A stretch of 64,000 bases of DNA from contig LJSY01000001.1 of the NCBI GenBank assembly GCA_001314805.1, positions 1 to 64,000 of the forward strand, read 5' to 3'. This document shows positions 28,244 to 62,515 of this stretch, piece by piece. Origin of the DNA: Rhodobacteraceae bacterium HLUCCO18 (GTDB taxonomy: Bacteria > Pseudomonadota > Alphaproteobacteria > Rhodobacterales > Rhodobacteraceae). How positions within the stretch are numbered: the stretch's first letter is position 1; each line of letters begins with the position of its first letter. The notes beneath the pieces are model-generated. The model was not told where the DNA came from. It made no database searches and was given only the letters and a program-made list of their open reading frames with translations. The translations under genes and the position numbers were made by a program.

Positions 28244-28348
28244 GGCCCGACCGCTGCCGGTCGCGGTCCGGCGCCGCCAGGACCCGGAAACGGATGTGTG
28301 TTATGCGCCACAGACATATCGGGATTGCGGCAGCGCAGCACCTTTTGG

Positions 28349-57086: not shown

Positions 57087-57169
57087 CTGTTCGCCGCACC
57101 CTGCCTTCCCCCGTTGGACATCGCGCGACAAGAGCCCATATGTGCGGGGACCGACAGGAGTGCTGCGAG

Positions 57170-57619
57170 ATGAAGACCTATACCAAGGACCCCGATGCCA
57201 TCGCCCGCCTGACGCCGGAACAGTATCGCGTCACCCAGAAGGACGCGACGGAACGTCCGGGCACGGGAGAGTACCTTAACAACAAGGAGCCGGGGATCTA
57301 CGTGGACGTCGTCTCGGGCGAGCCGCTTTTCGCCTCGTCCGACAAGTACGAAAGCGGCTGCGGCTGGCCCAGCTTCGTCAAGCCGATCACGCCAGCCCAC
57401 GTGGTCGAGAAACGCGACCTCAGCCTCGGCATGATCCGCACCGAAGTGCGCTCCGCCCACGGCGACAGCCATCTGGGCCACGTCTTTCCCGACGGGCCGC
57501 GCGACCGGGGCGGCCTGCGCTATTGCATCAACTCGGCCTCGCTCCGCTTCGTCCATCGCGACGACATGGAGGCGGAAGGCTACGGCGACTATCTCGACCA
57601 GGTGGAGGACATCACATGA
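57170..57619 (+). CDS. msrB: Peptide-methionine (R)-S-oxide reductase
   Basis: [44 protein letters not shown]. Confidence 0.96.
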
Positions 57620-58131
57620 GCACGACACGTGAACGCGCCGTTCTGGCGGGCGGCTGTTTCTGGGGCATGCAGGAGCTGATCCGCCACAAGCCCGGCGTCA
57701 TCTCGACCCGCGTGGGCTATACCGGCGGCGACGTGCCGAACGCGACATACCGCAACCACGGCACCCATGCCGAGGGGATCGAGATCATCTTCGACCCCGA
57801 GGTGATCAGCTACCGCGAGATCCTCGAGTTCTTCTTCCAGATCCACGATCCGACGACGAAGAACCGGCAGGGCAACGACATCGGAATGAGCTATCGCTCG
57901 GCCATCTACTACGTGGACGAGGCGCAGAGGCAATGCGCGCTCGACACGATCGCGGATGTGGACGCCTCGGGCATCTGGCCCGGAAAGGTCGTCACCGAGG
58001 TCGAGCCCGTGGGCGATTTCTGGGAAGCGGAGCCGGAGCATCAGGATTACCTGCAGCGCCTCCCGCATGGCTATACCTGCCACTTCCCGCGGCCGGGCTG
58101 GGTCCTGCCGAAACGCGCCGCCGCCGAATGA
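57616..58131 (+). CDS. msrA: Peptide-methionine (S)-S-oxide reductase
   Basis: [15 protein letters not shown] (GCFWG), [25 protein letters not shown]. Confidence 0.96.
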
Positions 58132-58170: not shown

Positions 58171-58854
58171 TCAGCGGCGCGCCTTGAGGGTTGGCCAGCC
58201 GAAGCGCTCGGTGATGCGCGGGTGCGAGGTCAGGATCGAGCGCTTGCGGCCCGTGGTGACCAGCGGCATCGGCCAGAAGTAGCGCGACATGTGCCGCCCG
58301 CCATGAAACACCGACGACCGCCGTGGTTTTGTCGACAAGAGCTTGCCGGGCCAGAACCATGTCGACTTGTGGCCCGGGCTAAGGTTGTCGGGTCGTTCCT
58401 TCCGGCGGCTGATGGTGGGAAAGCCGAAGACGTCCGAAAGCCGCCAGCCCGACCAGCCAGAGCCCACGTAATCGTCGCGCGTCATCATCATCGGGTGATT
58501 TTGCAGGACCGACGATGTGTATTTCCCCAGGTCCGGCTTCTCCTCGATGTAGCGGTTCTGGTTCGCCACCCCCGCATCGATCCATGGCTCGCTGTCGGCA
58601 ACCTCCTGCGCGCGACGCGCGGCCCCGAAGGGTGTGAACGGCGCCCGGACGACCAGAAGCGCGCGGCCCTCCGTCATCGCACTGGCGTATCGTTCCGCGG
58701 CGCGTTCCTCGACGCGGCTTGCGGCGATCCGCCCGGCATCGGCGGAGGTGATCACGTCAAACGTCGCCTCGGGAAACCCGTCGTCGCGCAGAACCTCTGC
58801 AACGCGGTCGACCACGGCCTTGGACTCGTATAGCCTCGTGACAACTGTCGTCAT
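58171..58854 (-). CDS. Uncharacterised LH2-operon-linked protein, short paralogue with degenerate C-terminal repeats
   Basis: MTTVVTRLYESKAVVDRVAEVLRD...; C-terminus FGFPTISRRKERPDNLSPGHKS/TWFWPGKLLSTKPRRSSVFHGGRH/MSRYFWPMPLVTTGRKRSILTSHPR/ITERFGWPTLKARR. Confidence 0.8.
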   Translation of the reverse strand: MTTVVTRLYESKAVVDRVAEVLRDDGFPEATFDVITSADAGRIAASRVEERAAERYASAMTEGRALLVVRAPFTPFGAARRAQEVADSEPWIDAGVANQNRYIEEKPDLGKYTSSVLQNHPMMMTRDDYVGSGWSGWRLSDVFGFPTISRRKERPDNLSPGHKSTWFWPGKLLSTKPRRSSVFHGGRHMSRYFWPMPLVTTGRKRSILTSHPRITERFGWPTLKARR

Positions 58855-59064: not shown

Positions 59065-60102
59065 TCAACGCGCTGTAAGGGTCGGCAGGCCGAGCATCCG
59101 GGAGAAGGACCAGCGCTTGGCCCCCTCCGAGGATTTCAGGACAAGCGGAAGGATCATGTCCGCCATATGCGCGTGGCGTGGGAACGCATATTTGTCCACG
59201 GGCTTGCGTCGGCTGATCAGAGGGATCGGGAAATTGGCCATCCGTGCGTGGCGCGGGAAGGCGAACGTGTCGACCGGTTTGCGATCACTCAGAAGCGGGA
59301 TCGGGAAGTTTGCCATGTGGGGACTGCCCGGAATGATCGCGTTGGTCCCGGTCTTGCCATTGATGAGCAGCGGGAAGGGCCAGTTGGCCATCCGCGTGTG
59401 CTTGCCGATCCATGTGCCGGTATAGGGCTTGCGGTCGGACAGAAGCGGGATCGGCCAGTTCGCCATCCGCGCGTGACGCGGGAAGGCAAAACGGTCGGCG
59501 GGCTTGCGCCGGCTGATCAGGGGGATCGGGAAGGCCGCCATGCGCGCGTGGCGCGGGAAGGCGAAATTGTCCGCGGGCTTGCGGCGGCTGATCAGCGGGA
59601 TCGGCCAGTTCGCCATATGTGCGTGTGGCGGGATGATGGATTCCCGGATCGGCTTGCGCCGGCTGATCAGCGGGATCGGCCAGTCCGCCATGTGGTAGGT
59701 CGTGCTTCCCGGCACCCGGTCACGGGTCAGGAGCCGCGGGTGATCCAGAAGGATCTTGCCGGAGAGCGGCTCGGGCCCCTCCTTGAGATAGACCTCCTCG
59801 ACGAGATCGGACATGTCGAGCGCGCCCATCGCGTCGGCCACGTCCCGCGTGGTCTGCGCGACGCCCAGCGGGCGGTAGCCTGCCCGCACCAGCACCACGG
59901 CGCCGCCGCGCGCCACGTGCTTTTCGTAGGCCGTCGCCGTCGCGGCCTGCACATGGGCCTCCGTCAGCGTCGCGACGAGATCCTCGGCGGTGTCATGGAG
60001 CTCGACGATCCGGGGCGAGAATTTCTGCATCTCGATCAGTTCGTGGCGCACCAGGCGCGCCTTTTCGGCGCTGTCGTAGCAGCGCGTGATGATCTTGGTC
60101 AT
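59065..60102 (-). CDS. Uncharacterised LH2-operon-linked protein with eight 25-aa tandem repeats
   Basis: 345 aa; N-terminal domain homologous to the 58171-58854 product; residues 137-336 are 25-aa repeats HMADWPIPLISRRKP....FAFPRHA; C-cap LGLPTLTAR. Confidence 0.85.
   Translation of the reverse strand: MTKIITRCYDSAEKARLVRHELIEMQKFSPRIVELHDTAEDLVATLTEAHVQAATATAYEKHVARGGAVVLVRAGYRPLGVAQTTRDVADAMGALDMSDLVEEVYLKEGPEPLSGKILLDHPRLLTRDRVPGSTTYHMADWPIPLISRRKPIRESIIPPHAHMANWPIPLISRRKPADNFAFPRHARMAAFPIPLISRRKPADRFAFPRHARMANWPIPLLSDRKPYTGTWIGKHTRMANWPFPLLINGKTGTNAIIPGSPHMANFPIPLLSDRKPVDTFAFPRHARMANFPIPLISRRKPVDKYAFPRHAHMADMILPLVLKSSEGAKRWSFSRMLGLPTLTAR
59095..59694 (-). repeat. Eight tandem 75-bp coding repeats (25-aa units; last unit degenerate)
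   Basis: Direct reading of codons 137-336; repeated DNA core agaagcgggatcgg(c/g)a... / ctgatcagcgggatcggccag visible on the + strand. Confidence 0.92.
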
Positions 60103-60206
60103 GGTGCCTCTCCCGTTGTGCTGCGTGCCGAGGCCATGCCGCCGGACGACGGGGCGCGACGGGCGCACCCCAAAGGTTCAAAGAGCCGTGAGACGAGTGT
60201 CGTCAT
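60099..60206 (-). pseudogene. Truncated third family member or 35-aa leader ORF (MTTLVSRLFEPLG...) overlapping the pucC stop
   Basis: GACCCATGACGACACTCGTCTCACGGCTCTTTGA closely matches GACCCATGACGACAGTTGTCACGAGGCTATACGA at the start of the 58854 gene. Its TGA overlaps the ATG of the repeat gene (ATGA). Confidence 0.55.
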
Positions 60207-61698
60207 GGGTCTCCCTCTCTGTTCGCCCGGTGCTGTGCAGTGCAGTTTCCGTGGGCGCTGCGGGGACGTCCGGTCTGCCCCCGCGGTTGGACATGGGTTT
60301 GGTCTGGCTTTGTTGACGGGCCTGCCGTCCCCTCAGCAGCGTGATCGCGAAAAGGGCGGCAAGCAGGAGAAGAAGCTCGAGCGTGAAGACGGGCGTATAG
60401 GGCGCCTCGGGGCGGAAGGTCTCGGCACCCGGCAGGGCGGTGATGAGGTCGCGGATGATCCCACCGAGCGCCACGGCGATCCCGGCGGCGGTGGCCTGCA
60501 CCGCGCCCCAGGCGCCGAGCGCAAGGCCCACCTGCTCGCGCGGGGCGCTGCGCATCGTGGCCGTCAGCGTGCCATGACCGAAAAGACCCGCGCCAAGCCC
60601 GGCAAGCCACGTGCCGGCCACGAAAAGCGCGGGTTCGCCCAGCGGACCGGCCGCGATGATGGCGGCGAAGGCGGGAATGCCCGCAAGCGTGCCCAACCAC
60701 GCCACGTCGATCGGATCGCGGCCGTTCAGCAGCACGCGCGAGGCGATGGCGAAACCGATGAGCCCGCCAAGCGCCAGAACGGCGGTCAGCCGCGTGGTCA
60801 TCGCCACCGACAGGTCCAGCACCTGCCCGCCATAGGGCTCCAGCAGGACATCGGCCATCCCGAAGCCCATGGTGCCGAGCGCGATGACGACCAGCAGGCC
60901 CACGGCGGTCTTGCCGCGCACGAACAGTCGCCAGGCATCGATGAAATCGGCATGGGTCTCGGTCTCCATGCGGGCGGCGCGCGCACGGTCGCGCGGCTCC
61001 TGCTTCCACAGGGCCAGAAGGTTCAGCGCAATGGTAACCACGGCCGCACCCTGCACCACCTGCACCAGCTTTCCGGGCGTGTAGTCCTGCAGCAGATAGC
61101 CGAAGATCAGCGCGGCGGCGATCATGCCCACCAGCAGCATGACATACATGAGGCCGACGACCTTGGGCTGCTCCTCCACCGGGACGAGGTCGGTGGCGAG
61201 CGCAAGGCCCACGGTCTGCACCGTGTGCACGCCCGCGCCCACCAGCAGGAAGGCGAGCGCGGCGCTGGAATAGCCGATCCAGAGCGGCGCATCGGCCGCC
61301 TGATCGTAACCGGACAACACCAGAAGCGCGAAGGGCATGATCGCGAAGCCGCCGAATTGCAGCATCGTGCCCTTCCAGATGTAGGGCACGCGACGCCAGC
61401 CAAGCGCGGATTTGTGAATGTCGGAGCGGTAGCCGATCAGCGCGCGGAGCGGCGCGAACAGAAGCGGCAGGGAAATCATCACGCCCACAAGCGTGGCGGG
61501 CACCTCGAGCTCGACGATCATCACGCGGTTGAGCGTGCCCAGCAGAAGCACAAGCGCCATGCCCACGGTGACCTGGAAGAGCGACAGACGCAGCAGGCGC
61601 GACAGCGGCAGATCCTCGTTCGCGACATCCGCGAAGGGCATGTAGCGCGGTCCGATCTGGCGGATCTTGCGAAGCGCGAAGTCACGGGTTCTGAACAT
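60178..61698 (-). CDS. pucC: PucC/BCH-family LH complex assembly protein (MFS fold)
   Basis: LPLSRLLRLSLFQVTVGMALVLLLGTLNRVMIVELEVPATLVGVMISLPLLFAPLRALIGYRSDIHKSALGWRRVPYIWKGT. Confidence 0.94.
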   Translation of the reverse strand: MFRTRDFALRKIRQIGPRYMPFADVANEDLPLSRLLRLSLFQVTVGMALVLLLGTLNRVMIVELEVPATLVGVMISLPLLFAPLRALIGYRSDIHKSALGWRRVPYIWKGTMLQFGGFAIMPFALLVLSGYDQAADAPLWIGYSSAALAFLLVGAGVHTVQTVGLALATDLVPVEEQPKVVGLMYVMLLVGMIAAALIFGYLLQDYTPGKLVQVVQGAAVVTIALNLLALWKQEPRDRARAARMETETHADFIDAWRLFVRGKTAVGLLVVIALGTMGFGMADVLLEPYGGQVLDLSVAMTTRLTAVLALGGLIGFAIASRVLLNGRDPIDVAWLGTLAGIPAFAAIIAAGPLGEPALFVAGTWLAGLGAGLFGHGTLTATMRSAPREQVGLALGAWGAVQATAAGIAVALGGIIRDLITALPGAETFRPEAPYTPVFTLELLLLLAALFAITLLRGRQARQQSQTKPMSNRGGRPDVPAAPTETALHSTGRTERETHDDTRLTAL

Positions 61699-61852: not shown

Positions 61853-62191
61853 CTAATCTACAAGGGCTGCCGATGTGAGGTCGTCCACGACGAGCGTCGC
61901 GGTCCGGCCATCGGGCAGGATCACACGCATGCTCTCGGCGCCGGCTGCGTCGGCCTCGAGATACATGGGCAGATCCGCTGCACCCGCCGAAGCGGGCAGA
62001 ATGGTCTGTTCCTGGGCGCGGGCCGCCGTATCGCCCGAACCCAGCTCCTGGCCGCTGAGGAAATCCGCAACCCACGAGGTGTTCGACAGAACAGCCACGT
62101 GAACCGAGAACGACCCAACGGCAACGGCGCTGAGGAAGAGCGGGATACCAACGGTCGGTTTCACGACCAGCCACATTTTCGCATTGTTCAT
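61853..62191 (-). CDS. pucA: Light-harvesting complex 2 alpha subunit with extended C-terminus (112 aa)
   Basis: MNNAKMWLVVKPTVGIPLFLSAVAVGSFSVHVAVLSNTSWVADFLSG... matches the LH2-alpha N-terminus, TM and liganding His31. Confidence 0.93.
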   Translation of the reverse strand: MNNAKMWLVVKPTVGIPLFLSAVAVGSFSVHVAVLSNTSWVADFLSGQELGSGDTAARAQEQTILPASAGAADLPMYLEADAAGAESMRVILPDGRTATLVVDDLTSAALVD

Positions 62192-62202
62192 TGTGTCACC
62201 CC

Positions 62203-62358
62203 TTATCCGAGCCAGGGCGTGGACACGGCCACGAGAACATGTGCCAGAAGTGCAATCGCACCGAAGACGCGGGTGCCGTCGATGAGGTAGCTGTGAACCT
62301 CTTCGGCCTCCTTCAGGGTCAGGCCGGTTGGCCAGACCTTATCGGGATCATCGGACAT
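62203..62358 (-). CDS. pucB: Light-harvesting complex 2 beta subunit (51 aa; absent from the supplied ORF track)
   Basis: MSDDPDKVWPTGLTLKEAEEVHSYLIDGTRVFGAIALLAHVLVAVSTPWLG; LH2-beta signature, 11 bp upstream of pucA. Confidence 0.95.
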   Translation of the reverse strand: MSDDPDKVWPTGLTLKEAEEVHSYLIDGTRVFGAIALLAHVLVAVSTPWLG

Positions 62359-62471: not shown

Positions 62472-62515
62472 TGTCACGTCAGGTTGACATTTGCAATTGT
62501 AAAGTGATGTAGACA
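62472..62515. promoter_or_regulatory. Tandem PpsR/CrtJ-type operators upstream of pucB
   Basis: TGTCACGTCAGGTTGACA (62472-62489) and TGTAAAGTGATGTAGACA (62498-62515), each TGT-N12-ACA, separated by exactly 8 bp. Confidence 0.75.

Follow-up and report, generated by a model that had tools for sequence, protein, structure and literature searches.

The puc operon

The window, the whole stretch of 64,000 nt analysed here from contig LJSY01000001.1 of Rhodobacteraceae bacterium HLUCCO18, carries a puc locus with the following features.

62472-62515, no strand assigned: tandem TGT-N12-ACA palindromes upstream of pucB, a PpsR/CrtJ-type operator (pattern scan)
62203..62358, minus strand: pucB, LH2 beta subunit (PF00556 match at 62209-62310; translation)
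61853..62191, minus strand: pucA, LH2 alpha subunit, extended at its C-terminus by about 60 residues (PF00556 match; PDB LH2 alpha matches; extension survey)
60178..61698, minus strand: pucC, LH2 assembly protein (PF03209, E = 9.8e-146)
59065..60102, minus strand: long-type paralogue, 345 aa, with N-domain, eight 25-residue units and a cap (ORF, BLASTP, alignment)
59068..59691, minus strand: 25-residue repeat array of the long protein, consensus MANFPIPLISRRKPxxxFAFPRHAR (near gap-free in 12/15 aligned long-type proteins)
58171..58854, minus strand: short-type puc-operon repeat protein, 227 aa (ORF; relatives directly after pucC in about 30 Rhodobacteraceae genera)
58543..58854, minus strand: YflT-like ferredoxin-fold N-domain, residues 1-104 of the short protein (AlphaFold2; hhalign to YflT, E = 6.7e-12)
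58171..58440, minus strand: repeat region of the short protein, four units of about 25 residues, basic (pI 12) and predicted to be disordered

The short ORF occupies exactly 58171..58854, begins with ATG and is preceded by a ribosome-binding-like sequence (GGGAGGGG). It lies 210 bases downstream of the long ORF, the start of which was taken as the ATG at 60102, within a mechanical ORF that extends upstream to 60168. The palindromes at 62472-62515, which we take from the known consensus to be PpsR/CrtJ operator sites, are one of two close pairs of TGT-N12-ACA matches in the window; the other pair (28295-28316) overlaps itself. From pucC through the short gene, the minus strand shows no terminator-like site except one within pucC, and the stem-loop between the long and short genes is ordinary (z -0.95). 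Given their common strand and order (pucB-pucA-pucC-long-short), the palindromes upstream of pucB and the lack of an intervening terminator-like site, the five genes look like one LH2 operon. The alpha/beta gene pairs of this genome number two, one LH1 and one LH2. Convergent with the operon are msrB and msrA (57140-58131, plus strand), encoding methionine sulfoxide reductases, which occur in the same order in genome G372.

Two paralogous repeat proteins

The initial annotation listed sequence motifs common to the product of 58171-58854 and its neighbour, and all of them are present in both proteins. It also proposed that the two have an N-terminal domain and repeats in common, which is borne out by BLASTP (E = 4e-21, 28% identity over 225 residues) and by comparison of the short-type and long-type family profiles (E = 1.6e-39 over 188 columns). 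Judged from these alignments, the two proteins are paralogues. Each consists of an N-domain of about 105 residues followed by a repeat region; the heads are acidic (N-domain pI 5), and the arrays are basic (pI about 12) and rich in proline and aromatic residues. No membrane helix is predicted in either protein, and no amphipathic helix in the array. Pfam and NCBIfam searches with both proteins returned no covering model, and a PDB sequence search with window protein P0001 and profiles A1 and A2 gave nothing useful.

In AlphaFold2 models of both proteins, the head is ferredoxin-like and confident (with lower pLDDT in the long protein than in the short) and the arrays have no fold. The short protein forms a block up to residue 100 with pLDDT of 92-98 and the order strand-helix-strand-helix-strand-helix-strand. 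A Foldseek search with the AlphaFold model yielded weak ferredoxin-like matches only (NDK, NikR, CutA, PII), with E values of at least 0.097.

In the short protein, repeat cores are located at residues 143 (FGFPTI), 167 (FWPGKLL), 193 (FWPMPLV) and 218 (FGWPTL), with spacings of 24, 26 and 25, in agreement with the earlier estimate of about four units. Within its C-terminal part, self-similarity is highest at lag 26, a value matched by 2 of 1500 residue shuffles, while the N-terminal 130 residues are aperiodic (837/1500 shuffles), so that the repeats are not an artefact of composition. The long protein contains eight units of exactly 25 residues and a cap (GLPTL), giving nine cores, and its self-similarity peak at lag 25 was reached by none of 1500 shuffles. 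In the long clade this array is constant in length, and it is near gap-free in 12 of the 15 aligned long-type proteins. Histidine recurs in 65 of 89 long-type units and is absent as a recurring residue in the short form. In three long-type arrays (L076 9749-10858, L077 4729-5796 and L078 9490-10686), a 15-residue repeat (KFPFGHIVPGHKFMA) has replaced the usual one, flanking a central 25-mer that is conserved.

A faint resemblance of the N-domain to YflT had been noted in the initial annotation, and profile comparison strengthens it. The YflT model PF11181 (general stress protein 17M-like) is matched by 7 of 29 short-type relatives, with a best E of 0.0013; P0001 does not match it, and neither window protein reaches the Pfam gathering cut-off. 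Against an alignment of the YflT proteins gathered here, hhalign gave 97.5% probability and E = 6.7e-12 for profile A1, with both halves of the YflT alignment matching the family N-domain, and E = 6.1e-7 for profile A2. Where the short-type profile is matched over its initial portion only, the matches are ordinary YflT proteins. By these comparisons, the N-domain is distantly related to YflT.

The relationship between the two forms was reconstructed from their N-domains. In the tree, which is midpoint-rooted, with bootstrap values not fully settled and many inner forks open, the long type forms a single clade (100/99, 17 rows) nested within a grade of short types. The window long protein falls inside the long clade, nearest to those of G315 and G167. 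The window short protein is sister to that of G372 (100/98), to which it is 52% identical, and the G372 gene is syntenic, with the same downstream genes as in the window. The short array had been described as a degenerate, eroded version of the long one; this description does not hold, because the derived clade is the long one, which branches within the short types, and the window short protein has its own ortholog in G372. As read from the tree, the short array, which occurs in about 30 genera, is the conserved form, and the long one is a derived expansion.

Linkage to LH2 genes and likeness to LH2-gamma

Both window proteins belong to a puc-operon repeat-protein family, recognised by a homologous N-domain and proline/aromatic repeats, encoded next to pucC or pucA. 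The family was found in 46 of 397 Rhodobacteraceae genomes, all of which fall among the 54 with an LH2-type pucC (PucC search score above 540 bits; the two groups are divided at an empty interval of scores from 495 to 548 bits). It is absent from all 114 phototroph genomes that have only an LH1-type (LhaA-type) homologue, that is, only a weaker, LhaA-like PucC match, and from the remaining genomes of the 397. Eight of the 54 genomes with LH2-type pucC lack the family, and no obvious replacement gene after pucC was seen among the neighbours listed for the family-less genomes. No family member accompanies the R. sphaeroides-type LH2 (G052). No family match was found in plasmid records, and one scan of named genomes found no relatives. 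The association of the family with LH2 is well supported; the family was previously unnamed and is found only where LH2 genes occur.

Every pucC-linked family gene lies on the strand of pucC and directly downstream of it, the window short gene being one place further, behind its paralogue. Relatives almost always have a single copy behind pucC, and the window is the only one of the 46 pucC loci with a long and a short gene in tandem. Both types also occur in three other genomes, but at separate loci. The second, long-type genes of these genomes (L075 1127-2176, L076 9749-10858 and L078 9490-10686) lie beside unrelated housekeeping genes, with no puc gene within the fetched stretch, and the same genomes have a short type after pucC. 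An LH2-linked two-protein family, the genes of which should commonly be adjacent in relatives, had been proposed from the sequence of the window; the tie to pucC stands for each copy, but the pair as a unit does not, as its adjacency is rare and relatives are mostly single-copy. The puc operon of D. shibae is reported to comprise four light-regulated genes, Dshi_2897-2900 (PMC10890935), which would fit pucBAC and one family gene.

The alpha subunit varies along with the family. PDB LH2 alpha matches cover at most residues 1-53 of the window PucA, and the C-terminal extension of about 60 residues (61856-62047) carries a V-x-L-PDGR-TA-x-L-V motif. A similar extension was seen at almost every Rhodobacteraceae locus that bears the family (L063 and L066 excepted) and at none of the eight LH2 loci without it (counts 43/2 and 0/8; Fisher p 5e-8, with loci treated as independent of phylogeny).

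Outside the Rhodobacteraceae, a search with the short-type profile brought up relatives from four other alphaproteobacterial families, the six examined being L147-L151 and L154. They have the same N-domain and C-terminal repeats, with a head match of E = 4.7e-20 for five of the six. All six adjoin pucA and/or pucC, some being placed between two pucBA pairs and some divergently from pucA. L149 and L150 show an unusual LH2 operon layout, pucA - repeat gene - pucA - pucC. The repeat period is 16 in L154 and 32/16 in L151, and 16 is among the top lags in L148; 16 is also the period of the LH2-gamma polypeptide of Rhodopseudomonas palustris (PDB 7ZCU, 7ZDI, 7ZE3 and 7ZE8, chain 'PucA-LH2-gamma').

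Six 16-residue repeats make up gamma, an extended ribbon that runs around 6/9 alpha-beta pairs near the cytoplasmic face of LH2 and binds six extra BChls; BLASTP searches by the authors of the structure found it only in Rhodopseudomonas (PMC9618040). Its gene is RPA1495, three genes away from pucBAe (RPA1491-1492; PMC5069747). Like the family, it is encoded near LH2 genes and has tandem short repeats with a P-L core that are extended and without secondary structure. Its period of 16 is common to the distant puc-locus relatives, whereas that of the window proteins is 25-26. It also differs from the window proteins in its length of 97 aa without an N-terminal domain, and in having six repeats rather than four (short) or nine (long). 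The Ser that ligates BChl in gamma is not conserved in position, the equivalent residue in the long repeat being F or W.

One distant member suggests a link in sequence. L154, the puc-locus protein of G748, has gamma (7zcu_S) as its top match among 177,635 PDB sequences (E = 0.0062; next match 0.8). The alignment runs along the repeats and scores 17.9 bits, compared with a maximum of 4.4 bits for 300 shuffles of the L154 repeat region, which keep its composition but not its periodicity. A second bridging member did not retrieve gamma, comparisons of gamma with profiles A1 and A4 were not significant, and the window proteins and their profiles have no significant similarity to it. A gamma search of 386 genomes gave matches at background level with E values similar to that of L154, and was for this reason left out as support. 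A match in G844 was rejected as chance, the genome having no family member or puc gene there. Since other bridging sequences and profiles fail and background matches are similar, homology of the family to gamma is suggestive.

PucC and LhaA assembly proteins are LH2-linked and share the operon, as neighbours only, and have an unrelated membrane transporter fold. In Rhodobacter capsulatus, pucD and pucE follow pucC, and PucE is an LH2-associated protein of about 14 kDa. The window proteins occupy the same operon position and are larger.

A possible role in the LH2 ring

By analogy with gamma, the favoured reading, to which slightly better than even confidence is attached, is that both window proteins are accessory subunits of the LH2 ring, with their repeats on the cytoplasmic face and one unit per alpha-beta pair. 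We infer from this physical binding to LH2 with one repeat per subunit on the cytoplasmic side, and likewise any effect on absorption, stability or packing. The proteins would be made from the PpsR-type-controlled puc operon, and the acidic YflT-like head would be a small soluble cytoplasmic domain. The basic array, having no fold of its own, could stretch out as a ribbon along the cytoplasmic rim of LH2 at the lipid head groups, contacting one alpha-beta pair per repeat as gamma does for 6/9 pairs in Rhodopseudomonas palustris. With nine cores, the long protein could span a whole nonamer; with four, the short protein might lie over a portion of a ring, or over a site where two rings touch. 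The C-terminus of LH2 alpha is periplasmic, and the proposed belt would thus be on the side opposite to the PucA extension. The N-terminus of the window PucA matches the alpha subunit of the nonameric R. sphaeroides LH2 (7pbw) without gaps, and under the rule relating the alpha N-terminus to ring size (PMC9618040), a nonamer is expected here. The nine cores of the long form would fit such a ring with one core per alpha-beta pair. In favour of the subunit reading are the co-occurrence with LH2, the operon position, the placing of the distant members at puc loci, the repeat periods, the charge pattern and the predicted disorder. Telling against it are the dependence of the gamma link on a single bridging match and a common period, the lack of an N-domain in gamma and its restriction to Rhodopseudomonas in BLASTP, the period of 25-26 in the window proteins, the R. 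sphaeroides-type LH2 with no family member, and the three long-type genes located apart from puc genes.

The proteins might instead assist in building LH2, the head binding PucC or nascent alpha/beta and the tail holding alpha-beta units until the ring closes and then leaving, so that neither would be found in the mature antenna. The position directly downstream of pucC at every pucC-linked locus, the co-occurrence with LH2-type pucC and not LhaA, and the combination of a soluble head with a flexible, basic, multivalent tail are all in keeping with such a factor. However, distant members lie between two pucBA pairs or divergently from pucA and are not always placed after pucC, 8 of the 54 genomes with LH2-type pucC manage without the family, and the 16-residue period in common with gamma points to a structural subunit; an assembly role is considered rather unlikely. 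Less likely again is a membrane-shaping or clustering protein that attaches through its basic repeats to lipid head groups, or to several LH2 rings at once, and arranges or bends the antenna membrane while no individual ring is wrapped. An array that is disordered, strongly basic and rich in proline and aromatic residues, with a fixed period and in two lengths within one operon, would suit this purpose, but the long clade has the same number of repeats in different genera, which a lipid binder would not need, and no amphipathic helix is predicted.

Two further explanations take up single features of the proteins. The distant relationship of the N-domain to YflT would allow a stress protein of that type to have come into the puc operon by chance. 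This is very improbable: the YflT relatives collected here have a glycine-zipper insert between the two halves, which the puc family lacks, its head being followed by the repeat array; no canonical YflT match was found in the 31 nearest genomes; and the linkage to LH2 is strict, with no family members found in non-phototrophs. That the short gene is the decaying remnant of a tandem duplication of the long one is hardly credible, even though the genes are adjacent and their products 28% identical, as the short protein is 52% identical to its syntenic G372 ortholog, the long proteins form one derived clade among the short ones, and the short form stands alone after pucC in about 30 genera.

An extension of the ring-subunit reading is possible but is put forward tentatively. 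The family may constitute an undescribed and widespread class of LH2 belt subunits, each with a YflT-like head and a measured ribbon of nine or four cores, of which the Rhodopseudomonas gamma would be a headless outlier. In that case the array would serve as a ruler matched to the size of the ring, and it might hold additional bacteriochlorophylls.

Few antenna complexes have been studied as thoroughly as LH2, but 46 of the 54 LH2-bearing Rhodobacteraceae sampled have an operon gene of an unnamed family. If its products are ring subunits, then LH2 structures from model species without the family would not be representative, the gamma belt would be a general feature and not one confined to Rhodopseudomonas, and the idea of repeat number as a ruler, for spectrum as well as ring size, would become testable.
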